64,000 nucleotides of DNA from Argopecten irradians (Eukaryota > Mollusca > Bivalvia > Pectinida > Pectinidae), in NCBI RefSeq assembly GCF_041381155.1, contig NC_091134.1, positions 27,161,540 through 27,225,539 on the forward strand, in the 5' to 3' direction. This document shows, piece by piece, positions 12,801-63,140 of the stretch. The notes below the pieces were generated by a model that had not been told where the DNA came from, ran no database searches, and worked only from the letters and a program-made list of their open reading frames with translations. The first letter of the stretch is position 1. Each line of letters begins with the position of its first letter. The position numbers and the translations under genes are program-made.

Positions 12801-15800
12801 TGACAATACTTCTAGATTAAGCCCAGTGCGAGTTAAACCGAGTGAATGTTAAGCAAGTAAGACTTAATCTCTTTGAGAATTAAGTCCACTAAAAGTGAAG
12901 CATTTTAAGAGTTATGTCCACTCGTCGGTACGTACTGTGAAGATTTCTTGGTCTGAGATGTTAAAATAGAATTTAAATGACTGAGGTGACCCCAGGCCCG
13001 GATAGCTGACAGTAGCGGTCAGCTCGTGTGACGATCCTGCGGCCACCACATCAGGAGCAGCAAATACACTAATGCTGTATCCGTATATACCCGCAGTGAC
13101 ATCATCCTTCAACCCTATATTAGCCACAGTCAGACTCAGACCCGTTCCTTTTGTATATTTGGATCTAGCGACGCAGGGTAAGTTCGATCCAGCGGCCCCT
13201 ACTTCTACGCCTGCTACAAACAACCCACTGCCACCATCTCCAGAATGTAACTTTGTGGAAGTGTCCACCGCATAAGTACCGACTGACTGACTTGGCACAT
13301 ACCAGGTTAACTTTACTGAACCTGTCGCACTCTTCGCTAACAGTGAGCGAGACTGAGTTGTCGTTACATTAATTGCAGCATTCTGAAATATATTTTGAAT
13401 ATAATATTAGACAAAAGCATGTCAATGTCATTCTAGCAACAAAATAAGTCGTATGTCAATATATATGTTATATGTATATCTATCAAGAAAAAAGTACGTG
13501 TCCATGTACAGTTGAATATATAAAAATAAAACTATACGACCTTCCTCTAGTACTATCGCCATTTCATGATGGCTCTTCAGGAATGTTTATAATATTCCTG
13601 AAGAGTCATCATGAAATGGCGAAAGTACTAGAGGAAGGTCGTATAGTTTTATTTGTTTTATATCGGAACTATTCAACATATTTAGATGTCAATATCACAT
13701 TCACTAAATACAAAATGTCGGAATGTTGTAATAACAAAAGAAATACAATTCAAAACACTTTAATATTAATATTATATAAATATATAGATGTCAATATCAC
13801 ATTTACTAAATACAAAATGTCGGAATGTTGTAATAACAAAAGAAATACAATTCAAAACACTTTAAAAAGGCAAGATTATCTTAAAACTATAAATCAAACA
13901 TATGTAAATTTTTTATACTTTGAGGTTTTTTTTTCAATTGAATTGCTTCTTCTGAATTTTATCAAGATAACTAGGAACTAGGTACGTCATTACTTTATGT
14001 GAAGATATCATAATGTTTCTGCAGAATTTATGACGTTAATATTAGAAAAAACTGACACAATAACAAAGGCCTGCTACCAAGAGAACATAACATCGTCAGA
14101 AGTAAGCATAGGATAATCAATGTGATGGAAGTGTTGTAAAGAAACAGTTTTCTTTCAGAACATTGTGTACTTATACAAATGAACATAATACCTACAGCTG
14201 TATCCATAGTTATGTGATGATTTTCTCAAATGTGGTTCAATGTCACAGGAATGTCGGAAGTGTTTATTTTACTGGCTTGATCAAAAGTGTATAGTCATTA
14301 TATCTAATATAAGGATTACTGTTGATTCGTGAATTGGTGTGTAGGTAGTATATTTTGACAAAATATGCGAGGAAATTACACATATCAGTAATAGAAAAAG
14401 AGATCGGCAAGATTCGGTACATATTTCGGTTACCAACTAACCATACCATTAAGTTTATAAGTGTCTATAGCAGGCAGCTGTAAATTAGATCACGAAATAT
14501 TTACTAATATCGGTAAATACTTACAGGAGCCTGGCCGACTATACTGAAGTTCTTTGTTGAAACTATTGCCACAGAGTCTACCTCCATGACTATACTGAAA
14601 TCATAGCTATCCTTGATGGCTGCCGACGCCTTAATATATAGTTTAACTTCATAGTCGATCGCATTAGAAAGGGATGTCGCTGTGCTATTGTAATAACCTG
14701 TAGCATGAAAACATAAATATAATTATATACTACAATATGACAAAATGAAAGCATTTGTCATCTTGATAAAAGCAATAAGTTCTAATTATTAAAAAGGATT
14801 TAGTCATTATGTAGAGCGATATATATTTTTTCTTGAAAGTTAGAATAGATAAATACTGTTCAACTTGAGTTACCTGTAAACCGTATATTGCGCACTTCAA
14901 AAATTATTATTGCTTTTTTTTTTTTTATAAAACCTCAATAAATATATATAAATAATCACGTTTAGAAGATATAACTAAAGCATTACCTTTATTTGGTAAG
15001 AAACCGTAATCTACAGTAATCGAATCTAGTCCGCCGTAACATGCCGGTGGCCGGCCGTCTCCGAGAACGGTTGATGATACAATATCTACGTAGTGTTCGC
15101 CAACAGATTGTAGTCGTACCGAGGCGATTGATAAAGTTTTGTCGCCACTACTCATCTGTAGTCGGTAAGACGATAGCGGACTATATAACACCATCTGTAG
15201 TTGGAAGTTGAAAAAGGTTCTCGCTGAAACGTTAACATGGTCTGGGATGTCTGTAGATAAGTCGGATCCCATGGTGGCATTCTGTGATATTAGAGTCCAT
15301 AACAGTACGAACTTCAGCATGTATCTTTTTTATGGTGTGAAAGGTATTAACTATTATTCAAGATAGAAATCAGTCCTATTAGTGATAATGATATACTTTA
15401 AGTATTTTGAAAATTGATTACAAATCTGAAGTCAAAATGTGTCGTTTTATTCAATTAATCCTATTGGCACTATAAAAACTGGTCTCATTCTTACCCCCAC
15501 CGTGCATGCCTTTGACTGAAAGACCATAACGGTACCAACAATGTATGATTTGATCACATCTTGGATAATATTGAAATGTCTGCTAACCTTACTGCACAAT
15601 TCTGATATTTCTCAACTGTTATACATTAAATGAAAACACAAGGGGTCGTCTGATCTGATAAAAGAATATTAACAAGTAAATACTATTAAGAATATGCTAG
15701 ATTCCATGGAGTACCTTTAGGGTGATAATAACAAAAATCAGAGAGAATCATCTACAGTATTCGACCTGCACCTCTGATAATCCAGAAGAAGACATTTGTA

Positions 15801-18800
15801 ATTTGTTTTCCAAAGTGGACATGTTAGTGTGTTAAAGCATTTTCACCAATCGCAATACCGGTATCTACTTGTTGATTTTGAAGACACTAATATGGACTCT
15901 GTTTGGTACAGTAGAACACCATAGAAAATGTTTAACTTACATGAAGTGGTAGTAGAATAAGTGTTAAAAAAACTTCCATGGAAACATCGTTTGAAACGAA
16001 TGTTGCGGTCACGTCCCGTGTGGATCCATTAGAGACCCCTGTCACATCAGCCATCAAGTAGTCTACAGTTAGTTTCAGTAAGCAGTAAGAACATGGGTCG
16101 TCAGTGACAGGGCTTTCTGTAGTTGAAGGAGGATTTGTCGTGTCCGTTGTAAAGAAAGCCGATTGGTTATTGGAATCCGTTTTTAAAGTAGCTGATTGGT
16201 TATTTGCGTCCGTTGTTAAGGTAGCTGATTGGTTATTGGAGTCCGATGTTAAAGTAGCTGATTGGTTGTTTGCGTCCGACGTAAAGGTAGCTGATTGGTT
16301 ATTTGCGTCCGTTGTTAAGGTAGCTGATTGGTTATTGGAGTCCGATGTTAAAGTAGCTGATTGGTTGTTTGCGTCCGACGTAAAGGTAGCTGATTGGTTA
16401 TTTGCGTCCGTTGTTATGGTAGCTGATTGGTTATTGAAGTCCGATGTTAAAGTAGCTGATTGGTTGTTTGCGTCCGACGTAAAGGTAGCTGATTGGTTGT
16501 TTGCGTCCGACGTAAAGGTAGCTGATTGGTTGTTTGCGTCCGACGTAAAGGTAGCTGATTGGTTGCTAGAGTCTGTTGTATACGTCAGGTTCCTAAAAGC
16601 TGTTGTGGCTGATGTGGTTGTGAAGGGGTCCGTAGTATATTGTGAGTCTGAAGAATGCGTGAAATTTTCCGAGACCGTTGTGACATTGGAATGTATATCA
16701 ACACCAGAGGTTGCCATAGTAACATTGGTCGTGGAATACATTGTAGAGGCGACTGTTGTTGAGACTAAATTTTGTAATTGAAGTGTACCATTACACTCAA
16801 CGTCACCAAAACTGTATGCACCACTTCTGCTAAAATTCTGGAGCTAAACCAAGAAAAGAGTTACATGTATGTAGGTATTATCTACTTATGAAACAGATAA
16901 GTTGTACGTTAAATCGTCGTGTAGTATTCCATTTCTGCAATGAAATACAACACAAACCACTGTAAACCTAGATTATATAAAACTGAAAACACATAGATTA
17001 TACATAAGTAAAATGTTTATATATGGGATTTTTATCATTCGCTTTGCTTCCTTTAATGTTTTATCACGATATCTATGTTGATCATGTCATTACGTATCAT
17101 AACTCAGCAAAATTGATGACATTACTCTCAGGAATAAAATGACGTAGCGGCAAATGTGTGCTATCAAAATGCATAGCTGTTGACAACTTATTGGCAATGT
17201 CTGGTATTGTTAATTGTTACAAATTTAAAGTTTACACATGTGTACAGCCTCATGCTCACTCACCAGTCCAGCTCGTTCTGTCATAAATGGTATGTAGATC
17301 CCATTGGTCATCGTGATGGAATCATCCTGATACTCTAAGTGGACAGCTGATATGATCACGGACATATCAGAAGGTGTAGCGACAAGTAACGACGCTTCCG
17401 GTGTCAGTCCGCGTGGAATATATATATAATGGACAACAGTCTTTAATTTTCCAGGATGTATATTCATGTTGTCCTCTTCAGTACAAAAGATGTATTGTTT
17501 ACAGGCCGACATCTCCTCTGTTAAGCAGTTTTCAGAGCTGAATGCTAGATACCCTATGAAAATAGACAATGACGATTCTTAGAATAACACAATCTTTCAT
17601 GCTCTTTGGGGTGTGACAGGAAAACACGAGCCGGAGGGTAAGATATTTTGTCAAACACGTGACTTTTTCGAGTGTTTGTCAGCTTAAGAATCTTATCCCT
17701 AGTGTTGAGATCTCCTCTCTCGCCTCAAAGATGACGAATGATTCTTTTTCAACTTTTCCTGTGCACCACTTTGTTTCTCAACTAATGATTTGTCAGCAAT
17801 ACAAACAAGGATGACGTGACCGGATTGTCGTCGCCGCCGTCGTCGTTGAAACGCCGTTGTATTGCTGTTATAATATCATGCTTCTGTTATCGCAACGTTA
17901 TGATACCGTTGTTGCGACGTCATGGTACTGTTGTCGTGACGTCATACAATCGTTGAAAACGTGCATAGATCGCGTGTAGCTTGTCTTTATCCTGGGATAA
18001 GTTTAATAGAATATTTCACTCCTTTGTGGTGAGACAGGAGAATCTCAACCCAAGGGATAAGATTCTGACTGAAGTTGTCAAACAAGAGGTTTTGCTGAAT
18101 GTTTGACAGCTTCAGAATCTTATCCCTTCAGAGATCTTATCTTCTGTCAAATCCCAAAGAGGGTGAATAATTCTCTTACCCTATCTGAATACGTGCAAAG
18201 ATCTCGTGTAGCTTGTCTTTACCCTGGGTTGAAAAAAATCTCTTGAATGACGAAACAGCTGTATTGAGACCATAACATAACTCACGAGTCCTAGTGAGAC
18301 GAAATAGCTGTATTGAGGCTATAACATCACTCACGAGTCCTAGTAAGACGAAACAGCTGTATTGGGGCCCTAAAATCACCCGCGACTTTTAGTAAGTCCT
18401 TTATTCTATCGCTAATAGAAGTACGACAAAATTGTATGGTTCTCATCGGCGAGTTTTGAAATGGCAGTCAGCTCTCCAGAACAGAGTAGTTATTTTGTAA
18501 ATTAACATATATCGTACGTTTCTAAATTCTAAAACAACTGTTATTCCTATTTAAATTATTCTGTCATCAGATTTTAACCTCTTTGAATACTTTACTCAAT
18601 TGGATCAGATAGTATTTAATCATGTCCTAGATTATATGGTTAAGCAATCCCTACGTGAAATACTATACTATAATACGTTTACCTTAGTAAAGTTACTGAA
18701 TGACTCCCTTTTAGACACTTAACTACAATTTTGCATTTTAATGTGTTATTTGTCTGATATTGGTAGTTTTTCTTATATCTTATTTATCATACAGTTTTTG

Positions 18801-21800
18801 TTGTCCTTCTAGAGCTCGCTAGGATTCCATACAGCTGTTCAATCTTTAAGACAATATCTAATGATTAATAATAATAAATGATAATATTCTAACAATAGCT
18901 TGTTCGTCCTTGGTTGGCTACATAATTTTATAGCATATCACTTTTGCTTATTATAACATTCATATTCCTACTCATGATGCCACGCATCTAATGAATAATT
19001 AACCTTGTTGAACAGGATATGATAATCAAGACTGATGCGTAAACAATACTCACAGCAGACAAAGATTATGTCTGTTGATCTAATACCTCATAGATAGCAG
19101 TCTGCATTATAATTAGACGATTTGGTAAATCATTGAACTTTTAATTGTTCATATTAAATTTACTTGTATGATATACATTATTATGAATCGCTGAATACTA
19201 ATTACCATGGTTTGTATGAAAATCAAGAATTTCAAATCCGAAAATAGCCAGCTGTATTGTATTTTCTAATTTTGTATTTTCTAATATTCTAATTTCGAAC
19301 TCGTTCCATTTCAATCATTAACACTTTTAATGCATCCAAGATTCATTGAACGTTAAAAGATTATCGTTTAATCAAGGACCAACCGATTACTTAAAACTAA
19401 CCCTTAATTGAAATCCACTCAACTAAGGATATTAGTCTACAGGTTTGTACAAATCATAAGAAATAAATGAACGAATGGATGAAAACACACAACAGGTGAA
19501 AATTGACTTTTGTGCACTCTAACTAAAATATCAGCAAATTCACCTTAAAGTTATTTATGCTATAATTTTTATACTAACGAGTCAGGAAGAGATTTTCCTA
19601 TGTTATGCACCATCAAAGATTATCAAAGTTTGGAGAATTATAACACTAACAATGCATAGGTTTTTATCTTATACAGACAAATAAGAGCTGAAAATTAATT
19701 AAAACAATTACGTCTCCAGTGCAGTAAAATGAGTACATAGGTCAGATCATGGAGCAAAGTTGTGGTCTACAATTCCAATTCACATTTTTGTTGTGTGCTT
19801 AGTAATTGTTTGAAGTAAGTTGTTTCTTCTGATAACGAATCAAGATATTTGATTTTGATTATCCCTTTAATTATTATATGTTTCATGTTTCAAGAAATGA
19901 CAACCTCAACTAAAATCATATTGACATCGACATGTGTATTCGTATCAGGAAGATGCATAAAAGATGACAACAATCAAATGTATAGAAAGTGGAGAAATAA
20001 AGAAATGTTAAAGAAAACAGTTTGAAGTGAACCTTAACATAGATGCTACATAAACTAAACTAGTGTAGTGAAAACTGGCTATGTGATATGATAGTAAACT
20101 AATGCTGTATAAATGTGGTATCAACATTTACACAAATGAAAGAAATATGTGGTCTGGAGTAAGTTCATGTCAAGCATCCAAAACTTATTTTAGGTGAATT
20201 TTCAATTTTTCAAATTAAAACATCTTGTCTTACCTATTACCATTGTTTCATTTATTCTCCTGTTGACAAAATTGTCCATTTTTATTGGAATTTGACAATG
20301 TACAAAAATCAAAATTGCTTAAATAGGAAAAAAAATCTCTAAGGTCACGCTGCGATAGCTAATTTGACATGTGGTTGTCATACATTTCCAAGCAATATAT
20401 ATTTAGATTAAATCTACGTTTGATAATTGAACAGGAAGCTCTCATCCTACAGTAAAACCAGGACACATGACTATCATTAACTGATGACTTTTACGTCTCA
20501 TTACTTCGAACATATTTATTCAAAAAATATATAATAACCCTTACGTACAAAACTATGAACTGTTAGGTCTTTTTTAAGAATTGAGCTAAACTATACTAAT
20601 CTTATAAGACATTATGTACTTTATTGTTAATGAGAGTAACAAGAGATAGTAGTATATTATGTACAATGCTGAAGTCATAGTAAAGTGTAACAAGAGATAG
20701 TAGTATATTATTTACTATGCTGAAGTCATAGTAAAGTGTAACAAAAGATAGTAGCATATTATTTACTATGCTGAAGTCATAGTAAAGTGTAACAAGAGAT
20801 AGTAGTATATTATTTACTATGCTGAAGTCATAGTAAAGTGTAACAAGAGATAGTAGTATATTATTTACTATGCTGAAGTCATAGTAAAGTGTAACAAGAG
20901 ATTTAGATAGTAGTATCTTATTTACATGCTGCAGTCATAGTAAAGTGTAACAAGAGATAGTAGTATATTATTTACTATGCTGAAGTCATAGAACAGTGTA
21001 ACAAGAGATAGTAGTATATTATTTACTATTCTGAAATTATAGTAAATTGTAACAAAAGATAGTAGTATATTATTTACTATGCTGAAGTCATAGTAAAGTG
21101 TAACAAGAGATAATAGTATAATTATTTACTATGCTGAAGTCATAGTAAAATGTAACAAGAGATTTAGATAGTAGTATATTATTTACTATTCTGAAATTAT
21201 AGTAAATTGTAACAAGAGATAGTAGTATATTTTTACTATCTGAAGTCATAGTAAATGTAGTAGTATTATTATTTACTATGCTGAAGTCATAGTAAATGTA
21301 ACAAGAGTAGTAGTATATTATTTACTATGCTGAAGTCATAGTAAAGTGTAACAAGATAGATAGTAGTATATTATTTACTATGCTGAAGTCATAGTAAAGT
21401 GTAACAAGAGATAGTAGTATATTATTTACTATGCTGAAGTCATAATAAAGTGTAACAAGAGATAGTAGTATATTATTTACTATGCTGAAGTCATAATAAA
21501 GTGTAACAAGAGATAGTAGTATATTATTTACTATGCTGAAGTCATAGTAAAGTGTAACAAGAGATAGTAGTATATTATTTACTATGCTGAAGTCATAGTA
21601 AAGTGTAACAAGAGATAGTAGTGTATTATGTACTATGCTGAAGTCATAGTAAAGTGTTTTACTTTTTGTATGAAAGGTCGGTAAGATTTTAGCTTAACGC
21701 TAAACCATCTAAGAAATATGACGACACGTCAAACGTTAGGAAGGAGAACCCAAAGATACGAATTTTGATCAACCTAACCAACAAAACATTGTTCTATCTT

Positions 21801-38700: not shown

Positions 38701-41700
38701 TGCACCCCCTTAATAAACGAATACCAATTTGCTATATCAACATTATTATCTATGATACATTGATGCGTCCTTAGCAAATGAGTTTTTAATGTCAATATAA
38801 GCGTTCATGCGATGTGCATAAGATGCTATTTGAGGTCTAAAAGACCATCTGTCCGAGCCAATGTCGACATTACATACACATCAGAGTATGCTGTAATAAA
38901 AAAAACCTGAACGATGTTGCTAACCTTCTACAATATCACAGACAGTTATTCTGATGACAGATGGATTTGAACATTGACAATAGCTATGATGTCAACCAGC
39001 ATGTTCGTTAACCTTGTTTGGAGTGTGCACTGGATACGAGAGAACATGCATATATATTAAAGAATGTGTTTCCTCTTAATAGTTATTCCTTGGTATAGTA
39101 TTTAACAACACTTTGACAATACTTCTAGATTAAGCCCAGTGCGAGTTAAACCGAGTGAATGTTAAGCAAGTAAGACTTAATCTCTTTGAGAATTAAGTCC
39201 ACTAAAAGTGAAGCATTTTAAGAGCTATGTCCACTCGTCGGTACGTACTGTGAAGATTTCTTGGTCTGAGATGTTAAAATAGAATTTAAATGACTGAGGT
39301 GACCCCAGGCCCGGATAGCTGACTGTAGCGGTCAGCTCGTGTGACGATCCTGCGGCCACCACATCAGGAGCAGCAATTACACTAATGCTGTATCCGTATA
39401 TACCCGCAGTGACATCATCCTTCAACCCTATATTAGCCACAGTCAGACTCAGACCCGTTCCTTTTGTATGTTTGGATCTAGCGACGCAGGGTAAGTTCGA
39501 TCCAGCGGCCCCTATTTGTACGCCTGCTACAAACAACCCGCTGCCACCATCTCCAGAATGTAACTTTGTGGAAGTGCCCACCGCATAAGTACCGACTGAC
39601 TGACTTGGCACATACCAGGTTAACTTTACTGAACCTGTCGCACTCTTCGCTAACAGTGAGCGAGACTGAGTTGTCGTTACATTAATTGCAGCATTCTGAA
39701 ATATATTTTGAATATAATATTATATAAAAGCATGTCAATGTCATTCTATCAGCAAAATAAGTCGTATGTCAATATATATATTATATAAATATATACCATA
39801 AAAAGTACGTGTCCATGTACAGTTAAATAGATAAAAAATAAAACTAAACGACCTTCCTCTAGTACTTTCGTCATTTCATGATGGCTCTTCAGGAATATTA
39901 CTTTCGCCATTTCATGATGGCTCTTCAGGAATATTTATAACATTCCTGAAGAGCCATCATGAAATGGCGAAAGTACTAGAGGAAGGTCTTTGAGTTTTAT
40001 TTGTTTTAAATCGGAACTATTCATAAGATTTACATGTCAATATCACATATTTGACTAAATACAAAATGCCGGAATGTTGTAATAACAAAAGAAATACAAT
40101 TCAAAACACTTTAAAAAGACAAGATCATCTTAAAACTATAAATCAAACATATGTAAAATTTTTATACTTTGGATTTTTTTTTCAATTGAATTGCTGAATT
40201 TTTATCAAGATAACTTCTCATAAGAACTAGGTACGTCATTACTTTATGTAAAGATATCATAATGTTTCCGCAGAATTTATGACGTTATAATTATAAAAAA
40301 AATGACACAATAACAAAGGCCTGCTACCAAGAGAACATAACATCGTCAGAAGTAAGCATAGGATAATCAATGTGATGAAAGTGTTGTAAAGAAACAGTTT
40401 TCTTTCATAACATTGTGTACTTATACAAATGAACATAATACCTATCCATAGTTATGTGATGATTTTCTCAAATGTGGTTCAATGTCACAGGAATGTCGGT
40501 AGTGTTTATTTTACTGGCTTGATCAAAAGTGTATAGTCATTATATCTAATATAAGGATTACTGTTGATTCGTGAATTGGTGTGTAGGTAGTATATTTTGA
40601 CAAAATATGCGAGGAAATTATACATATCAGGAATAGAAAAAGAGATCGACAAGGTTCGGCACATATTTCGGTTAACAACTAACCATACCATTAAGTTTAT
40701 TAGTGTCTATAGCAGGCAGCTGTAAATTAGATCACAAAATATTTACTAATATCGGTAAATACTTACAGGAGCCTGGCCGACTATACTGAAGTTCTTTGTT
40801 GAGACTATTGCCACAGAGTCTACCTCCATGACTATACTGAAATCATAGCTATCCTTGATGGCTGCAGACGCCTTAATATATAGTTTAACTTCATAGTCGA
40901 TCGCATTAGAAAGGGATGCCGCTGTGCTATTGTAATAACCTGTAGCATGAAAACATAAATATAAATATATACAACAACATGACGAAATAAAATCATTTGT
41001 CATCTTAATAAAAGTAATAAGTTTTAATTTTTGAAAAAAAGTCATTATGTAGTGCGATAAATATTTTTTCTTGAAAATTAGAATAGATAAATACTATTCA
41101 ACTTGAGTTACCTGTAAACCGTATATTACGCACTTCAAAAATTATTATTGCTTTATTTTTTTTTGTAAAAACCTCAATAAATATATATACATAATCACGT
41201 TTAGCAGATATAAATAAAGCATTACCTTTATTTGGTAAGAAACCGTAATCTACGGTAATCGAATCTAGTCCGCCGTAACATGCTGGTGGCAGGCCGTCTC
41301 CGAGAACGGTTGATGATACAATATCTACGTAGTGTTCGCCAACAGATTGTAGTCGTACCGAGGCGATTGATAAAGTCTCGTCGCCACTACTCATCTGTAG
41401 TCGGTAAGACGATAAGGGACTATATAACACCATCTGTAGTTGGAAGTTGAAAAAGGTTCCCGCTGAAACGTTAACATGGTCTGGGATGTCTGTAGAGAAG
41501 TCGGATCCCATAGTGGCATTCTGTGATATAATAATCCATAACAGTACGAATTTCAGCATGTATCCTTTTTATGGTGTGAAATGTATTAACTATTATTCAA
41601 GATAGAAATCAGTCCTATTAGTGATAATGTTATATTCTTTAAAGCCATGTAAAGTATTTTGAAATTTGATCACAAATCTGAAGTCTAAAAGTGCCGTTTT

Positions 41701-44700
41701 ATTTCATTAATCCTAATGGCACTATAAAAACTGGTCTCATTCTTATCCCCACCGTGCATGCCTTTGACTAAAAGACCTAATACATAAACTTGTTTGCTTA
41801 TCCTACATCCAGATATCGATTGTGATAACATATGTTAATGTAACAAATAACATATTTTCTTAAACCATTTGACTTTATTTCGTTACGCATAACGGTACCA
41901 ACAATGTATGATTTGATCACATCTTGGATAATATAGATAGGTCTGCTAACCTTACTGCACAATTCTCAACTGTTATAAATTTAATGAAAACACAAGGGGT
42001 CGTCTGATCTGATAAAAAGTTAACAAGTAAATACTATTCAGAATATGCTAGATTCCATGGAGTACCTTTAGGGAAATAATAAAAAAAATCAGTGGGAATC
42101 ATCTACAGTATTCGACCTGCACCTCTGATAATCCAGAAGAAGACATTTGTAATGTGTTTTCCAATGTGGACATGTTAGTATGTTAAAGCATTTTCTCCAA
42201 TCGCAATTCTGGTATCATATGTTTGACAAGTCTACTTGTTGATTTTGAAGACACTAACGCGGATTCTGTTTGGTACAGTAGAACACCATAGAAATTAAAA
42301 ATGTTTAACTTACATGAAGTGGTAGTAGAACAAGTGTTAAAAAAACTTCCATGGAAACATCGTTTGAAACGAATGTTGCGGTCACGTCCCGTGTGGATCC
42401 ATTAGAGATCCCTGTCACATCAGCCATCAAATAGTCTACAGTTAGTTTCAGTAAGCAGTAAGAACATGGGTCGTCAGTAACAGGGCCTTCTGTAGTTGAA
42501 GGAGGATTTGTCGTGTCCGTTGTAAAGAAAGCCGATTGGTTATTGGAGTCCGATGTTAAAGTACCTGATTGGTTATTTGCGTCCGTTGTTATGGTAGCTG
42601 ATTGGTATTGGTTATTGGAGTCCATGTTAAAGTAGCTGATTGGTTATTTGCGTCCGTGTCGTTAATCCGATGTTAAAGTAGTGATTGGTTGTTTGCGTCC
42701 GTTGTTAAGGTAGCTGATTGGTTATTTGAGTCCGATGTTAAAGTAGCTGATTGGTTGTTTGCGTCCGACGTAAAGGTAGCTGATTGGTTGTTTGCGTCCG
42801 ACGTAAAGGTAGCTGATTGGTTGTTTGCGTCCGACGTAAAGGTAGCTGATTGGTTGCTAGAGTCTGTTGTATACGTCAGGTTCCTAAAAGCTGTTGTGGC
42901 TGATGTGGTTGTGAAGGGGTCCGTAGTATATTGTGAGTCTGAAGAATGCGTGGAATTTTCCGAGACCGTTGTGACATTGGTCTGTATATCAACACCAGAG
43001 GTTGCCATAGTAACATTGGTCGTGGAATATAATGTAGAGGCGACTGTTGTTGAGACCAAATTTTGTAATTGAAGTGTACCATTACACTCAACGTCACCAA
43101 AACTGTATGCACCACTTCTGCTAAAATTCTGGAGCTAAACCAAGAAAAGAGTTACATGTATGTATTTATTATCTACTTATGAAACAGATAAGTTGTACGT
43201 TAAATCGTCGTGTGGTATTCCATTTCTGCAATGAAATACAACACAAAACACTGTAAACCTAGATTATCTAAAACTGAAAACTGTAGATTATACATAAGTA
43301 AAATGTTTATATATGGGATTTTTATCATTGGCTTTGCTTCCTTTGATGTTTTATCACAATATCTATGTTGGTCATGTCACTAGGTATCATAACTCAGCAA
43401 AATTGATGACATTACACTCAGGAATAAAATGACGTAGCGATCAAAATGCATAGCTGTTGACAACTTATTGGCAATGTGTGGTATTATTGATTGTTACAAA
43501 TTATCAAGTTTACACATGTGTACAGCCTCATGCTCACTCACCAGTCCAGCTCGTTCTGCCATAAATGGTATGTAGGTCCCATTGGTCATCGTGATGGAAT
43601 CATCCTGATACTCTAAGTGGACAGCTGATATGATCACGGACATATCAGAAGGTGTAGCGACAAGTAACGACGCTTCCGGTGTCAGTCCGCGTGGAATATA
43701 TATATAATGGACAACAGTCTTTAATTTTCCAGGATATATATTCATGTTGTCCTCTTCAGTACAAAAGATATATTGTTTACAGGCCGACATCTCCTCTGTT
43801 AAGCAGTTTTCCGAGCTGAATGCTAGATACCCTATAAAAATAGACAATGACGATTCTTAGAATAACACAATCTTTCATGCTCTTTGGGGTGTGACAGGAA
43901 AACATCAGCCGGAGGGTAAGATATTTTGTCAAACACGTGACATTTTCGAGTGTTTGACAGCTTAAGAATCTTATCCCTAGTGTTGATATCTCCTCTCTCG
44001 CCTCAAAGATGACGAATGATTCTTTTTCTCCTTTTCCTGTGCACCACTTTGTTTCTCAACTAATGATTTGTCAGCAATACAAACAAGGATGACGTGACCG
44101 GATTTTCGTCGTCGCCGTTGTATTGCTGTTATAATATCATGCTTCTGTTATCGCAACGTTATGATACCGTTGTTGCGACGTCATGATACTGTTGCCGTGA
44201 CGTCATACAATCGTTGAGAACGTGCATAGATCGCGTGTAGCTTGTCTTTATCCTGGGATAAGTTTGATAGAATATTTCACTCATTTGTGGTGAGACAGGA
44301 GAATCTCAACCTAAGGGATAAGATTCTGACTGGAGTTGTCAAATAAGATGGTTTGCCGAATGTTTGACGTATTCAGATTCTTATCCCTTCAGAGATCTTA
44401 TCTCCTGTCAAATCCCAAAGAGGGTGAATAATTCTCTTACCCTATGTGAGTACGTGCAAAGATCTCGTGTAGCTTGTCTTTACCCTGGGTTGAAAAAAGC
44501 TCTTGAATGACGAAATAGCTGTATTGAGACCATAACATTACTCACGAGTCCTAGTGAGACGAAATAGCTGTATTGAGGCTCTAACATCACTCACGAGTCC
44601 TAGTAAGACGAAACAGCTGTATTGGGGCCCTAAAATCAACCGCGACTCCTAGTAAGTGTTTTATTCTATCGCTAAAAGAAGTACCACATAATTGTATGGT

Positions 44701-47700
44701 TCTCATCGGCGAGTTTTGAAATGGCAGTCAGCTCTCCAGAACAGAGTAGATATTTTGTAAATTAATATATATCGTACGTTTCTAAATTCTAAAACAACTG
44801 TTATTCCTATTTAAATTATTCTGTCATCAGATTTTAACCTCTTTGAATACTTTACTCAATTGGATCAGATAGTATTTAATCATGTCCTAGATTATATGGT
44901 TAAACAATCCCTACGTGAAATACTATACTATAATACGTTTACCTTAGTAAAGTTACTGAATGACTCCCTTTTAGACACTTAACTACAATTTTGCATTTTA
45001 ATGTGTTATTTGTCTGATATTGGTAGTTTTTCTTATATCTTATTTATCATACAGTTTTTGTTGTCCTTCTAGAGCTCGCTAGGATTCCATACAGCTGTTC
45101 AATCTTTAAGACAATATCTAATGATTAATAATAATAAATGATAATATTCTAACAATAGCTTGTTCGTCCTTGGTTGGCTACATAATTTTATAGCATATCA
45201 CTTTTGCTTATTATAACATGCATTTTCCTACTCATGATGCCACGTATCTAATGAATAATTAACCTTGTTCAACAGGATATGATAATGAAGACTGATGCGT
45301 AAACAATACTCACAGCAGACAAAGATTATGTCTGTTGATCTAATACCTCATAGACAGCCGTCTGCATTATAATTAGACGATTTGGTAAATCATTGAACTT
45401 TTAGTTGTTCATATTAAATCTACTTGTATGATATATATTATTATGAATCGCTGAATACTAATTACCATGGTTTGTATGAAAATCAATAATTTCAAATCCG
45501 AAAATAGCCAGCTGTATTGTATTTTCTAATTTTGTATTTTTCTAATATTCTAATTTCGAACTCGTTCCATTTCAATCATTAACACTTTTAATGCATCCAA
45601 GTTTCCTTGAACGTTAAAAGATTATCGTTTAATCAAGGACCAACCGATTACTTAAAACTAACCCTTAATTGAAATCCACTCAACTAAGGATATTAGTCTA
45701 CATGTTTGTACAATTATAAGAAATAAATGAACGAATGGATGAAAACACACAACAGGTGAAAATTGACTTTTGTGCGCTCTAACTAAAATATCAGCAAATT
45801 CACCTTAAAGTTATATATGCTGTAATTTTTATACTAACGAGTCAGGGAGAGATTTTCCTATGTTATGCACCATCAAAGATTATCAAAGTTTGGAGAATTA
45901 TAACACTAACAATGCATAGGTTTTTATCTTATACAGACAAATAAGAGCTGAAAATTAATTAAAACAATTACGTCTCCAGTGCAGTAAAATGAGTACATAG
46001 GTCAGATCATGGAGCAAAGTTGTGGTCTACAATTCGAATTCACATTTTTGCAGTGTGCTTAGTAATTGTGAAGTTGTTTCTTCTGATAACGAATCAAGAT
46101 ATTTGATTTTGATTATCCCTTTAATTATTATATGTTTCATGTTTCAAGAAATGACAACCTCAACTAAAATCATATTGACATCGACATGTGTATTCGTATC
46201 AGGAAGATGCATAAAAGATGACAACAATCAAATGTATAGAAAGTGGAGAAATAAAGAAATGTTAAAGAAAACAGTTTGAAGTGAACCTCAACATAGATGC
46301 TACATAAACTAAACTAGTGTAGTGAAAACTGACTATGTGATATGATAGTAAACTAATGCTGTATAAATGTGGTATCAACATTTACACAAACGAAAGAAAT
46401 ATGTGGTCTGGAATAAGTTCATGTCAAGCATCCAAAACTTATTTAGGTGAATTTTCAATTTTTTCAAATTAAATCATCTTGTCTTACCTATTACCATTGT
46501 TTCATTTATTCTCCTGTTGACAAAATTGTCCATTTTTATTAGAATTTGACAATGTACAAAAATCAAAATTGCTTAAACAGAAAAAAAGGTCACGCTGCGA
46601 TAGCTAATTTGACATGTGGTTGTTAAACATTTCCAAGCAATATATATTTTAGATTAAATCTACGTTTGATAATTGAACAGGAAGCTCTCATCCTACAGTA
46701 AAACCAGGACACATGACTATCATTAACTGATGACTTTTACGTCTTATTACTTCAAACATATTTATTCAAAAAATATCTAATAACTCTTACGTACAAAACT
46801 ACGAACTGTAAGGTCTTTTTTAAGAATTGAGCTAAACTATACTAATCTTATAAGATTATTATGTACTATGCTGAAGTCATAGTAAAGTGTAACAAGAGAT
46901 AGTAGTATATTATTTACTATGCTGAAGTCATAGTAAAGTGTAACAAGAGATATTAGTATATTATTTACTATGCTGAAGTCATAGTAAAGTGTAACAAGAA
47001 TAGTAGTATATTATTTACTATGCTGAAGTCATAGTAAAGTGTAACAAGAGATATAGTAGTATATTATTTACTATGCTGAAGTCATAGTAAAGTGTAACAA
47101 GAGATAGTAGTATATTATTTACTATGCTGAAGTCATAGTAAAGTGTAACAAGAGATAGTAGTATATTATTTACTATGCTGAAGTCATAGTAAAGTGTAAC
47201 AAGAGATAGTAGTATATTATTTACTATGCTGAAGTCATAGTAAAGTGTAACAAGAGATAGTAGTATATTATTTACTATGCTGAAGTCATAGTAAAGTGTA
47301 ACACGAGATAGTAGTATATTATTTACTATGCTGAAGTCATAGTAAAGTGTAACAAGAGATATAGTAGTATATTATTTACTATGCTGAAGTCATAGTAAAG
47401 TGTAACAAGATAGATAGTAGTATATTATTTACTATGCTGAAGTCATAAGTGTAACAAGAGAAGTAGTAACTGAAGTCATAGAAAGTGTAGATAGATATAT
47501 ATTATTTACTATGCTGAAGTCATAGTAAAGTGTAACAAGAGATTTATATAGTATATATTATTTACTATGCTGAAGTCATAGTAAAGTGTAACAAGAATAT
47601 AGTAATATATTATTACTATTGAAGTCATAGTAAGTGTAACAAGAGATAGTAGTATATTATTTACTATGCTGAAGTCATAGTAAAGTGTAACAAGAGATAG

Positions 47701-49914
47701 TAGTAGTATATTATTTACTATGCTGAAGTCATAGTAAAGTGTAACAAGAGATAGTAGTATATTATTTACTATGCTGAAGTCATAGTAAAGTGTAACAAGA
47801 GAAGATAGTAGTATATTATTTACTATGCTGAAGTCATAGTAAAGTGTAACAAGAGATAGTAGTATATTATTTACTATGCTGAAGTCATAGTAAAGTGTAA
47901 AAAGATAGTAGTATATTATATTTACTATGCTGAAGTCATAGTAAAGTGTAACAAAGAGATAGTAGTATATTATTTACTATGCTGAAGTCATAGTAAAGTG
48001 TAACAAGAGATAGTAGTATATTATTTATATGCTGAAGTCATATTACTATGTAACAAGAATGTAATAGATAGTAGTATATTATTTACTATGCTGAAGTCAT
48101 AGTAAAGTGTAACAAGAGATAGTAGTATAATATTATTTACTATGCTGAAGTCATAGTAAAGTGTAACAAGAGATCTAGATAGTAGTATATTATTTACTAT
48201 TTTGAAGTCATAGTAAAGTGTAACAAGAGATAGTAGTATATTATTTACTATGCTGAAGTCATAGTAAAGTGTAACAAGAGATAGTAGTATATTATTTACT
48301 ATGCTGAAGTCATAGTAAAGTGTAACAAGAGATATATATAGTATATTATTTACTATGCTGAAGTCATAGTAAAGTGTAACAAGAGATAGTAGTAGTATTA
48401 TTATTTACTATGCTGAAGTCATAGTAAAGTGTAACAAGAGAGATAGTATATATTATTTACTATGCTGAAGTCATAGTAAAGTGTAACAAAGATAGTAGTA
48501 GTATATTATTTACTATGCTGAAGTCATAGTAAAGTGTAACAAGAGATAGTAGTATATTATTTACTATGCTGAAGTCATAGTAAAGTGTAACAAGATATAG
48601 TAGTATATTATTTACTATGCTGAAGTCATAGTAAAGTGTAACAAGAGTAGATAGTAGTATATTATTTACATGCTGAAGTCATAGTAATGTAACAAAAGTA
48701 GTATATATTATTTACTATGCTGAAGTCATAGTAAAGTGTAACAAGAATAGTAGTATATTATTTACTATGCTGAAGTCATAGTAAAGTGTAACAGTTAGTA
48801 GTAGTATATTATTTACTATGCTGAAGTCATAGTAAAGTGTAACAAAGATAGTAGTATATTATTTACTATGCTGAAGTCATAGTAAAGTGTAACAAGAGAT
48901 AGTAGTATATTATTTACTATGCTGAAGTCATAGTAAAGTGTAACAAGAGATAGTAGTATATTATTTACTATGCTGAAGTCATAGTAAAGTGTAACAAGAG
49001 ATATAGTAGATATTATTTACTATGCTGAAGTCATAGTAAATTGTAACAAAAGATAGTAGTATATTATTTACTATGCTGAAGCCATAGTTAAAGTGTAACA
49101 AAATAGATAGTAGTATATTATTTACTATGCTGCAGTCATAGTAAATGTAACAAAATATAGTAGTATATTATATTATATTAAGTGAAATCATAGTAATAGT
49201 AGGTAACAAGATATCTAGATAGTAGTATATTATTTACTATTATGAAATCATATTTAATTGTAACAAAAGATAGTAGTATATAATTTACTATTATGAAGTC
49301 ATAGTTAAGTGTTACTTTCTTTTTCTATGAAAGGTCGGTAAGATTTTGGCTTAACGCTAAACTATCTATATATATAGCTAATAAATATGACGATACGTCA
49401 AACGTTAGGAGAAACCAAAGATACGAATTTTGAACAACCTAACCAACAAATCATACGCCGTATAACCATGTACACCAGAAAGTCATCTGTAGTTAATAGA
49501 ACATTGTACTATCTTATTTCATTTCGATTTTTTTTATTATTTGGTCCTCATACAAAAATCCAAAATTCAAAGCCACATCATCATACTGTAATACGCTATT
49601 TAACCATTTTGTAATTGTTAATTTTTATCATAAATGTTGTTAAATTAACATTATTAAAGAACAGTCATTGTCTGAATAGGTTATCGAAGTTAAATAGAAA
49701 CAGTTTTTATCTTTTATCATAATTCAGATTATTATATCATCGCAAGTCTAGCATCAAACTTCGAATGCTATAAAATATATAGATTGATAAAATATGTGCT
49801 TTTCAAGATAATCTTATCATTAAGCCGCTATTTGTTTAATAAGTTTATGCATTGCTTACCTCTCGTAAACAGAAGACAAGATATTAGCAAAATCCACACA
49901 CATGACGAAGACAT
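35730..49914 (-). CDS. Gene B: recent duplicate of gene A, exon 3 out of frame
   Basis: Exons: 49860-49914, 43542-43831, 42314-43134, 41226-41520, 40767-40939, 39249-39695, 38415-38656, 37875-38106, 37420-37539, 36872-37061, 36194-36432, 35730-35951. Eleven of twelve have exactly the length of the gene A exon, with the same splice sites and stop. Exon 3 is 821 nt instead of 903, not a multiple of three; the reading frame enters the NQSA repeat normally and meets a stop near 42673, then a usable frame resumes near 42625. The rest differs from gene A by about 2% in the exons I compared. Either the copy is a young pseudogene or the repeat tract is wrongly assembled; open frames in all other exons argue against an old dead gene. 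Intron 1 carries a much longer 51-bp array than in gene A. Confidence 0.72.
37183..37373. other. 190-bp insertion in gene B intron 9
   Basis: Absent from gene A at about 11053. No inverted ends or coding content seen; the inserted part is slightly richer in GC in its middle (cggcggaggcggcg). Confidence 0.7.
42516..42865 (-). repeat. NQSA minisatellite in gene B exon 3, shortened and out of frame
   Basis: Same 33-bp units as in gene A. The first six units (42700-42865) are clean; between about 42600 and 42690 units are merged and carry several small insertions and deletions, some not multiples of three; the last units before 42540 are clean again. Net length is 82 nt shorter than in gene A. 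Confidence 0.85.
46856..49312. repeat. 51-bp hairpin satellite, about 48 units (gene B intron 1)
   Basis: Same unit as at 20632-21655, expanded about 2.4-fold. Many single-base and short indels occur at unit ends, while the hairpin core is nearly invariant. Confidence 0.93.
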
Positions 49915-59900: not shown

Positions 59901-62900
59901 ACGTTACCTGTCTTTGATACGTCACCATTAAAACTATGGAGGATGTAAACTAATGGATTCAAATAGTCTGTCCGGATATAACAGCTCGAACGATCCTGCC
60001 ACGTACCCTTTACTCATCGTATCTACATACATAGATCCATAACAGACGTTGTTCACTTACTTTCCGTTCAACACTATTCGATGGATAACCTAATGTTATT
60101 GCTTAAAGAACTTGCTTATTTTAACTGCACGTGTACATATCTGTTGAAGTTATATGCGTTTTACATATTGCAGAATGCTTCTATGAAGTCAAACTTCTCT
60201 ACCGATCTTCCAGACACGGTCAACGTTCCAAAGAATAAATTGACACACTTCAAAGTAAAGATGTCACTCCAAAGTCCCTTATCAACATACAAACTGAAGT
60301 TAAACACCTCAAGTCCAATACTTATGATAGTGTCTGTCCGCATAACGTTTATAGGCGAACATTACAGAGATATTCTATCCCCATCAATGAGAGAGGAAGC
60401 GATGTGTTCCGGGGGATGGCAATCGTACACCGTAGACTTAGGCTACCTACCCAATAAAGGTAAATATACACCTAAGTCTTTGGTAACCTATCCAGTAATG
60501 GTAAATATCCACCTAAGACTTTGGTTGCCTACCCATTAAAGGTAAATTTACACCTTAAACTTTGGTTACCTACCCATTAAAGGTAAATATACACCTTAGA
60601 CTATTGTTACCTACCCGATAAAGGTAAATATACACCTAAGACTTTGGTTGCCTACCCAATAAAGGTAAATATACACCTAAGACTTTGGTTGCCTACACAG
60701 TAAAGATAAATATCCACCTAAGACTTTGGTTGCCTACACAGTAAAGGTAAATCTACACCTTAAACTTTGGTTACCTACCCATTAAAGGTAAATATACACC
60801 TTAGACTTTTGTTACCTACCCGATAAAGGTAAATATACACCTAAGACTTTGGTTGCCTACCCAATAAAGGTAAATATACACCTAAGACTTTGGTTGCCTA
60901 CACAGTAAAGGTAAATATACACCTAAGACTTTGGTTGCCTACCCAATAAAGGTAAATATCCACCTAAGACTTTGGTTGCCTACACAGTAAAGGTAAATAT
61001 ACACCTTAGACTTTTGTTACCTACCCGATAAAGGTAAATATACACCTAAGACTTTGGTTGCCTACACAGTAAAGGTAAATATACACCTTAAACTTTGGTT
61101 GCCTACCCAATAAAGGTAAATATACACCTTAGACTTTGGTTGCCATGCACAGTAAAGGTAAATATACACCTTAAACTTTGGTTGCCTACCCAATAAAGGT
61201 AAATATACACCTAAGACTTTGGTTGCCTACCCAATAAAGGTAAATATACACCTTAAACTCTGGTTACCTACCCGATAAAGGTAAATATACACCTTGGACT
61301 CTGGCTACCTACCCGATAAAGGTAAATATACACCTTAGACTCTGGCTACCTACCCGATAAAGGTAAATATACACCTTAGACTCTGGCTACCTACCCAATA
61401 AAGGTTAATATACACCTTAGACTTTTGTTGCCTACACAGTAAAGGTAAATATACACCTAAGACTTTGGTTGCCTACACAGTAAAGGTAAATATACACCTT
61501 AAACTTTGGTTACCTACCCGATGAAGGTAAATATACACCTTGGACTTTGGTTGCCTACCCAATAAAGGTAAATATACACCTTAGACTTTGGTTGCCTACC
61601 CAATAAAGGTAAATATACACCTTAAACTCTGGTTACCTACCCGATAAAGGTAAATATACACCTTGGACTCTGGCTACCTACCCGATAAAGGTAAATATAC
61701 ACCTTAGACTCTGGCTACCTACCCAATAAAGGTTAATATATACCTTAGACTTTGGTTACTTGCCCCATTAAGATAAATATACACTTCAGACTCTAACTTC
61801 CTACACAATAAAGGTAAATGAACACCTAAGACTCTGGTTACCTACCCAATAAAGGTATAAAAATACCTTAAATTTTGGCTACCTACCAAACAAAGGTAAA
61901 TATACACCTTAGACATTGGTTATCTACTCGATAAATATAAACATTTACCTTAAATTCTGGCATCTTACCCAATAAAGGTAAATATACACCGTAGACTTTG
62001 GCTACCTACCAAATAAAGTTAAATAAATACCTTAGACTCTGTCTACCTACCCAATAAAGGTAAAGATACATCTTAGACTTTTGTTACCTACCCAATAAAG
62101 GTAAATATACACCTTAAACTCTGGCTTTTTACCAAATAAAGGTAAATATATACCTTAGACTTTCGTTACATACCCAATAAAGGTAAATATACACGTTAGA
62201 CTTTTGTGCCATACCCAATAAAAAAACATACATACACCTTAGACTTTGGCTACCTACCCAGCGCCGTATAAGCAGAATCTACGATATCGAAACGTTTGTT
62301 ATTACATCTCTATTGTGACAGTATGGACAAATGTCAAATATTTGAAACAATGTCAGTCTTTAACAAAACACAAGAGTATAACCAAATAAGCACAATGAAA
62401 TAATATTGTAAAGTGATAATCTCAAAATACCCTTGGGCAAGCGAAAGCCGAAGGTGGGTTCTTCTTCAACTGTATTAATAGTAATGCATTTTTTATTTAT
62501 ATAAAGTAACTAGTGAATCCCAAGTCTACCAAAAACGAATTTGCCCTCTGTTTCTAATGCAAATAAATATTAGTTTTAACATTACTATCTTTGTTTGAGC
62601 AATATTTCCGACTTTGGGCTTGTTATGCTACTCCCTGAATTAAATTTGATGCAGTGAGGCACTAATCATCCCATGAATGCTTAAATGTACCAAACATTTG
62701 TACAGTATATTCATTTAAAAGACCAATTTTCGCGGAGAAGGAAATTCGTTCATTTTGGTCAAAACACGAAAATTAAACTCCCATGAAAAGAACTGATTTC
62801 ACAGTATTAGAAGATGAGTTTATATCGCTATGTACAGTCTACTGGTTTTAACACAGTATATAATTGTTTGGTTAATGATGCTCATGCAGATGCAATTTAT

Positions 62901-63140
62901 TTACTCTTCCAATAATAACTTCTCCATTTAAATGAAATATATGAATGCTTGCTTTCTATTGTAGGATACGACAACAGTAACTCTTCAGCCGAAGCTGACA
63001 TAGTAGAATTGGAAATCGTGTTGATGTTGCGACACGATGTCGTGGTAGGGGAGAGATACACTCTTGACTTGGACTTGGAAGTAGATTCACTGGTAGTGAC
63101 GAATTCTACAAAGTATTTCAACGCGGTCTATGAAGCGCCT
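53965..63140 (+). CDS. Gene C: plus-strand paralogue of gene A, first five exons, continues off the window
   Basis: Exons: 53965-54025 (signal peptide), 54943-55232, 59065-59454, 60174-60459, 62965-63140; phases 1,0,0,1,0 match gene A exons 1-5. They give 401 residues. Exon 3 begins VYNFSRQGTYVFGN, matching gene A QNFSRSGAYSFGD; in place of the NQSA array it has a short Ser/Thr/Pro linker with STGS and TTS motifs, then CTFCWMKFAVDYLMADITG. Exon 4 matches the NASM...STDLPD start and ends DLGYLPNKG. Exon 5 ends VYEAP just before gtaagtgtat, the same border as gene A exon 5. No plausible exon 6 is seen between 63141 and 64000. Intron 2 (3.8 kb) holds transposon remnants; intron 4 is largely a 41-bp minisatellite grown from the donor site. 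Intact in all visible exons, hence probably functional. Confidence 0.78.
54209..54750. mobile_element. Same MITE in gene C intron 1
   Basis: Copy 2 equivalent of 33360-33896 with the same ends and internal repeats. Confidence 0.7.
55259..55720. repeat. TTCATGAA-rich degenerate repeat block in gene C intron 2
   Basis: Dozens of overlapping variants of the palindrome ttcatgaa and of tgaatattcatgaa. It begins at the right end of the duplicated block. A smaller patch lies at 56380-56455. Confidence 0.8.
56291..56335. repeat. Imperfect hairpin
   Basis: gaagtcatttgact and agtcatatgacttc are inverted around a central gtcatgtgac. Confidence 0.6.
56940..57280 (+). mobile_element. Tc1/mariner-like transposase remnant (DNA-binding part)
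   Basis: One frame reads DDQALRKLTIAERWQATVVV then QDGISY; another goes on with LGVTKAVVHSV-like sequence (GVTKAVVHSVPQT). Together these resemble the helix-turn-helix region of Tc1-like transposases (RWQ-hydrophobic-QDG-S, then a V-x-+-V-V-H recognition helix). The frame is broken at least once and the catalytic part is not recognisable. A 99-codon frame from 56978 is a by-product. Confidence 0.45.
57281..58737. other. Gene C intron 2, no exon seen
   Basis: Patch 58290-58500 is richer in GC (ttatattgcacggttcga occurs twice with variation) and may be an old repeat, but no family could be named. Confidence 0.45.
58738..58895. mobile_element. MITE-like inverted repeat in gene C intron 2
   Basis: gtgatggtaatcaaaa near 58776 and ttttgattaccatcac near 58834 are perfect complements; outer parts (ggttactgtgctctagtt; tggagtacactaaccc) pair imperfectly. 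Confidence 0.7.
60441..62270 (+). repeat. 41-bp minisatellite made of an exon end and its splice donor (gene C intron 4)
   Basis: About 44 units, period 41, consensus cctacccaataaaggtaaat then atacaccttagactttggtt g. The first unit is the real end of exon 4 (ggctacctacccaataaag at 60441-60459) with its donor gtaaatatacacct. Later units repeat both sides. Sub-families differ at accttaaactttgg/acctaagactttgg and cacag/cccaat; the last third is more diverged. Confidence 0.95.
62271..62964. other. Rest of gene C intron 4
   Basis: Unique AT-rich sequence ending in the acceptor tttctattgtag. Confidence 0.5.

Follow-up and report, generated by a model that had tools for sequence, protein, structure and literature searches.

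The stretch of DNA analysed here, hereafter called the window, comprises 64,000 nucleotides of the Argopecten irradians genome (G000:C1:27161540-27225539; genome of 845.8 Mb) and carries homologous exons of three genes, A, B and C. In gene C, analysis of the window with TRF delimited a tandem array at 60426-62260, with a period of 41 bp, 44.7 copies and 85% matches. This array starts 34 bases within exon 4, and its unit comprises these 34 exon bases and the 7 intron bases GTAAATA that follow them. Unit-by-unit dissection gave 45 units, the first of which is the exon's own end with its donor (TACACCGTAGACTTAGGCTACCTACCCAATAAAG followed by GTAAATA). The predicted junction between the end of exon 4 at 60459 and the start of exon 5 at 62965 is consistent with the reading frame and with GT/AG borders. 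No Pfam family reached its cut-off for exons 4 and 5 of gene C, the single weak match being DUF434 (E = 0.27). Elsewhere in the assembly, COX1 gave no match, nor did molluscan haemocyanin, whose control also gave no signal, so that the gene may still be present. Comparison of myosin and tropomyosin exons with solved structures did not place the phylum, although the tropomyosin exons seem similar to those of molluscs, perhaps of scallops. The features are listed below in window positions, with a slash at exon ends.

14988..15281, minus strand: homologous exon 4 of gene A, donor AAAG/GTAATG, no array at the donor
41227..41520, minus strand: homologous exon 4 of gene B, donor AAAG/GTAATG, no array at the donor
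60174..60459, plus strand: exon 4 of gene C (286 nt, the final 34 of which form repeat unit 1), placed by paralog exon search and open frame, with TTGCAG upstream and AAAG/GTAAAT at its end
60426..60466, plus strand: unit 1, 34 coding bases and the presumed real donor GTAAATA (TRF start at 60426; dissection)
60460..60466, plus strand: presumed real 5' splice site of intron 4 (sequence, reading frame into exon 5, homologous paralog donors)
60467..61738, plus strand: units 2-32, with GT in 30/31 (lost in unit 7) and the identical 9-mer in 27/31 (dissection)
60537..60539, plus strand: first in-frame stop once the first donor is passed (open reading frame 59982-60539)
61739..62260, plus strand: units 33-45, diverged older copies; 33, 37, 39 and 44 without GT, 45 partial and without donor (TRF, dissection)
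62965..63140, plus strand: exon 5 of gene C, acceptor AG at 62963-62964 (sequence; protein 95% identical to exon 5 of paralog D)

A previous interpretation made from the letters of this DNA, hereafter the sequence-only reading, had described a minisatellite that repeats a genuine 5' splice site about 44 times. This description holds: the unit of the 41-bp, 44.7-copy array crosses the exon/intron junction, where the shorter array of paralog D, presented below, is also located. Two of its details were revised. The array had been thought to start at the exon 4 border, at 60441, with about 15 exon bases in each unit; it starts at about 60426, inside the exon, and each unit has about 34. The argument drawn from the reading frame was borne out, as the first decoy adds 41 nt and shifts the frame, and all later decoys include the stop at 60537-60539, which the open frame confirms to be the one met on reading past the first donor. 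Dozens of near-perfect decoy donors had also been claimed, and this is true of most units: among the 43 copies of the exon 4 donor in units 2-44, 38 keep the GT and 33 have the same 9-mer, AAGGTAAAT, as the presumed real donor. The claim fails for the five that have lost the GT (units 7, 33, 37, 39 and 44).

Identical pairs are numerous among units 2-32 (for example 4/9, 10/15, 21/30, 22/31 and 24/32), while units 33-44 contain no identical pair and 4 of these 12 lack the GT. Because of this distribution, units 2-32 are read as a recent internal expansion and the far end of the array as old.

Arrays at the exon 4 border across the gene family

A whole-genome DNA search for the 41-bp unit, in which two candidates were scored, simple repeats and very common words were skipped and counts are lower bounds, found the unit at one place besides gene C. 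This place is paralog D, 36 kb downstream, where 6.6 units lie at the same exon 4 border. Occurrence of the array elsewhere in the genome, away from exon 4 sequence, had been named by the sequence-only reading as what would speak against it; the one other place is itself at exon 4. The same reading treated the array as singular, which has to be given up: the unit is also present at D, the array belongs to a described class, and such arrays recur in the gene family. To its question whether array length varies, the paralogs provide an answer, with 44.7 units in C against 6.6 in D.

An insertion of about 470 bp (G000:C1:27257443-27257916; L012, L021) interrupts exon 4 of D, and stops come after it, so that this paralog looks like a pseudogene. 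A long inverted repeat can be seen by eye within the insertion. The flank on the 3' side of the array aligns between C and D, with 191 of 287 columns identical. The exon copies of the unit are identical at 39/41 positions between the two genes, and the exon copy of gene C is identical at 38/41 positions to its nearest array unit, unit 39. Since D has the same border array and an alignable flank, the array is most simply taken to be older than the C-D duplication, and its length would since have changed about sevenfold. The dN/dS ratio between C and the broken D is about 0.9 in exon 4 (its first 132 nt) and 1.2 in exon 5, where changes are few, and ratios among three paralogs with 33-bp arrays (L022, L023 and L024) are about 0.39-0.54; these figures are uninformative regarding constraint on gene C.

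A search for exon 4 returned 20 places, two of which are the halves of D. One further place was dropped (L036; E = 0.19, internal stops), leaving 18 paralogous exons. The donor lies inside an array in six of them (C, D, L022, L023, L024 and L032), and units of three unlike kinds are found at this border: 41 bp in C and D, 33 bp in L022, L023 and L024, and a degenerate unit of about 30 bp in L032. The 33-bp paralogs are located on C16, near 30.48 and 30.54 Mb, and on C13, near 13.84 Mb. All six arrays extend 20-33 bases into the exon, in a count that omits the last exon base. No array covers the donor in 11 of the 18 exons, including those of genes A and B. The exons of A and B had been said to end at the homologous position without any array, and this is correct: their donor is AAAG/GTAATG, with no array over it nor in the 1.5 kb downstream. 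At L030:1801-2084, a 20-bp array starts about 10 bases past the homologous donor and does not include it.

The longest array was found in L023 (with L048 and L069; G000:C16:30535500-30547052, minus strand), where a 33-bp unit is present in at least 295.8 copies over at least 9.78 kb. With the copy in the exon itself counted, CTGGTGAGT occurs 279 times in this array, which continues beyond the DNA examined. Past the first donor, additional donor-like copies number about 5 in D, 12 in L024, 40 in both C and L022, and at least 278 in L023. In a tree of the exons, C groups with D (93/96) and L022-L024 form another group (98/99); the deep forks are unsettled, long branches were flagged, and the number of origins is not decided by this tree. 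The unlike units and their different start points in the exon suggest that the arrays with unlike units arose separately. Alternatively, the arrays may share a common ancestry, their units having been replaced later.

Several arrays away from the exon 4 donor were also recorded. Near genes A and B, 51-bp arrays of 20 and about 48 copies lie at window positions 20636-21657 and 46857-49312, and 33-bp arrays at 16142-16565 and 42515-42856, located upstream of exon 4 of these genes within open frames of the minus strand, translate in frame into repeats rich in Ser, Thr and Asn. Intronic arrays of 41-42 bp at L029:2303-2537 and L028:2295-2566 have units with an acceptor-like TTTTTCACAGG; the one in L029 follows an apparent exon 5, and no exon border is spanned as judged by eye. 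A 79-bp array of about 92 copies (L016, G000:C1:27141540-27148830) lies 13 kb upstream of the window and runs from the edge of the examined DNA.

Arrays with a period of 15-100 and at least 4 copies make up 18.5% of the bases in 20 random pieces (50 kb; arrays in 8/20 pieces) and 17.8% in 144 kb that include the window. Because minisatellites thus occupy some 18% of the sampled bases, recurrence at the exon 4 border may be no more than chance: a hot spot is not established with 3 of about 10 lineages, obtained by collapsing the 18 exon rows by hand using the exon tree (P = 0.28 against the 18.5% background). Arrays span donors in 7/38 rows and acceptors in 0/37 (P = 0.012), or 4/30 and 0/30 by lineage (P = 0.11), in counts that include a myosin case added after the fact (TRF rows of 2.0-2.6 copies, under the 4-copy threshold), exclude the 3.2-copy repeat of L092, and take other myosin exon ends only approximately. 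The excess at donors is suggestive by rows and not established by lineages. The L092 repeat (L092:436-477) has a 13-bp unit and is situated at the donor of a different exon of the myosin set.

Choice of donor and origin of the array

Scoring of the donor in each unit, a check that the sequence-only reading had proposed, showed that the U1 pairing of 34 of the 38 GT-bearing decoys equals or exceeds that of the real donor of gene C. The real donor is thus not singled out by its sequence strength. With folding windows of 80 nt, none of the 38 GT-bearing decoys is as open as the real donor; 8/38 decoys surpass it at 150 nt and 5/38 at 300 nt, and in paralogs the decoys are the more open in D (3/4) and, at 80 nt, in L022 (36/41). 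RNA structure was rejected as a general rule for hiding decoys, since window sizes and paralogs disagree. The donor columns of the decoys are conserved at 0.959 against 0.886, a weak signal with P = 0.046 from non-independent columns. Purifying selection on the decoys was not accepted on this basis, and the weak excess may leave room for some selection.

Twenty myosin exons of the same genome served as a control, and one of them, a class I myosin exon (L088:472-665; G000:C2:23208553-23209332), has a small donor array. Downstream of its donor, a repeat of roughly 34 bp contains five additional donor-like sites; the donor motif has 5 matches there, including the real donor, where 0.05 are expected. 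One of the additional sites outpairs the real donor with U1 (-9.8 vs -5.2 kcal/mol). When joined at its first donor, L088 aligns with solved myosin Ic across the junction without a gap, and splicing of this gene therefore very probably uses the first donor. By analogy with this conserved gene and with the lancelet literature, use of the first donor is plausible in gene C. Where identical donors are duplicated, the copy nearer the intron can be preferred, which would predict decoy use in gene C; competition between identical 5' splice sites has usually been studied with few copies in artificial constructs.

We consider it probable, with good confidence, that the gene C array is a minisatellite of the mirage type known from lancelets: a near-neutral duplication of the exon boundary, tolerated with the original donor in first place. 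A short tandem duplication across the 3' border of exon 4 would have copied the last 34 bases together with the donor, and repeat-driven expansion would then have extended the array downstream into the intron, a course supported by the anatomy of the array and by paralog D. The coding exon would have stayed unaltered because the original donor is still the first copy. The spliceosome presumably takes this donor, the first to emerge during transcription and the one immediately adjoining the exon, so that the array would be tolerated as a mostly neutral passenger in a minisatellite-rich genome.

Among other explanations, the array could act on the output of gene C: some transcripts would use decoys, be put out of frame or stopped at 60537-60539, and undergo degradation, with array length as the tuning element. 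The 33/43 copies equal to the real donor over 9 bases, the strong U1 pairing of 34/38 GT-bearing decoys, the frameshift or stop in every decoy product and the slightly higher conservation of donor columns (P = 0.046) are all consistent with such tuning. We nevertheless judge it unlikely, as the GT has been lost in 4 of the 12 oldest units and lancelet mirages are reported, in the available portions of two papers, to leave splicing undisturbed (PMC3087553, PMC3902484).

It is considerably less probable that the decoys of the 33-bp paralogs, being in frame, serve to add 11-residue repeats to the protein as in human IFI6, the gene C array being a degenerate or unrelated relative. A unit of 33 bp does preserve the frame, and IFI6 employs two downstream repeat units as donors (PMC4526556, available portions). 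Reading past the donor meets a stop after 83 nt in L022, 101 nt in L023 and 233 nt in L024, so that it is preceded by at most 2, 3 and 7 decoy positions, not all of them good donors; against this explanation, the stop thus falls within 3-8 units in all three genes, and the 41-bp unit of gene C breaks the frame. An assembly artefact that inflates the copy number, to which long arrays are prone, is very improbable: numerous units have differences of their own, most of all the older ones, paralog D has a second, short array, and the qualitative finding is independent of the count. Least credible is the chance abutment on exon 4, in this minisatellite-rich genome, of an element that inserts introns or of some other dispersed repeat (introner, satellite), since the unit takes in coding sequence from the end of exon 4, the arrays of other paralogs at this border are built of unlike units, and in place of the many dispersed copies at unrelated genes that mark introners, the whole-genome search (two candidates scored, simple repeats skipped) found the unit only at genes C and D.

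Scale, recurrence and known systems

What is unusual in the case of gene C is its scale and the repeated occurrence of such arrays in one gene family. A wider reading, which we put forward tentatively and regard as somewhat doubtful, is that donor-spanning minisatellites form a recurrent genome-wide class in this scallop, with repeated origins at one and the same exon end from unlike units and with close to 300 strong donors in a row in the longest case, and that the first of dozens to hundreds of equal donors is routinely picked. If true, transcription order and exon definition, rather than site strength, would decide the choice of donor, and mirages would extend beyond lancelets. The gene family offers a natural test of single-site choice among dozens of donor copies, in frame or out of frame, and could show if the first donor prevails and if a higher copy number lowers fidelity. 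Donor arrays also bear on the lengthening of introns and on boundary duplications as seeds of new introns.

In the open-licence literature, we found no report of a molluscan tandem repeat at an exon-intron boundary with a splice donor. In the same literature, the available portions of which gave no copy numbers for Adh3 and IFI6, no boundary array with dozens of donors was found described.

In human IFI6 (6-16), as in gene C, the donor at the end of an exon is repeated in a minisatellite. This minisatellite with multiple splice donors was reportedly described by Turri et al. in 1995, and the array itself is said to hold perhaps some two dozen short units. Splicing from its downstream units produces isoforms (PMC4526556, available portions), whereas the 41-bp unit of gene C breaks the frame. 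In human segmental-duplication genes, variable internal tandem repeats likewise alter the exon-intron boundaries of recent paralogs; according to the available portions of the source, these repeats average four 30-bp units and lead to elongation of exons or introns or to novel introns, unlike gene C, where an intact exon is followed by dozens of decoy donors (PMC2812944).

The closest counterparts are the lancelet mirages, minisatellites across exon-intron boundaries with units of 10-160 bp, found in Adh3 and globin genes and proposed as seeds of new introns (PMC3087553, available portions). The mirage of BflGb6 has 6 and 3 units in two haplotypes, that of Adh3 shows somatic instability, and Adh3 data together with globin RT-PCR suggest that regular splicing is undisturbed (PMC3087553, in the same portions). 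No aberrant mRNAs are generated by the Adh and TnC mirages, and PGBD5 was added as a further case (PMC3902484, available portions). The units of the gene C array span exon and intron sequence across the boundary and many of them repeat the splice signal, which places it in the same class as the amphioxus mirages of Adh3, the globins BflGb6 and BflGb9, TnC and PGBD5, as these are described in the available portions of the sources. The array of gene C is thus a long member of the known mirage class. The scallop arrays, known here from sequence alone, differ from the amphioxus mirages in that unlike units recur at one border within a gene family, and against the 6 and 3 units given for BflGb6 in the available text there are about 45 units in gene C and more than 295 in one of its paralogs.
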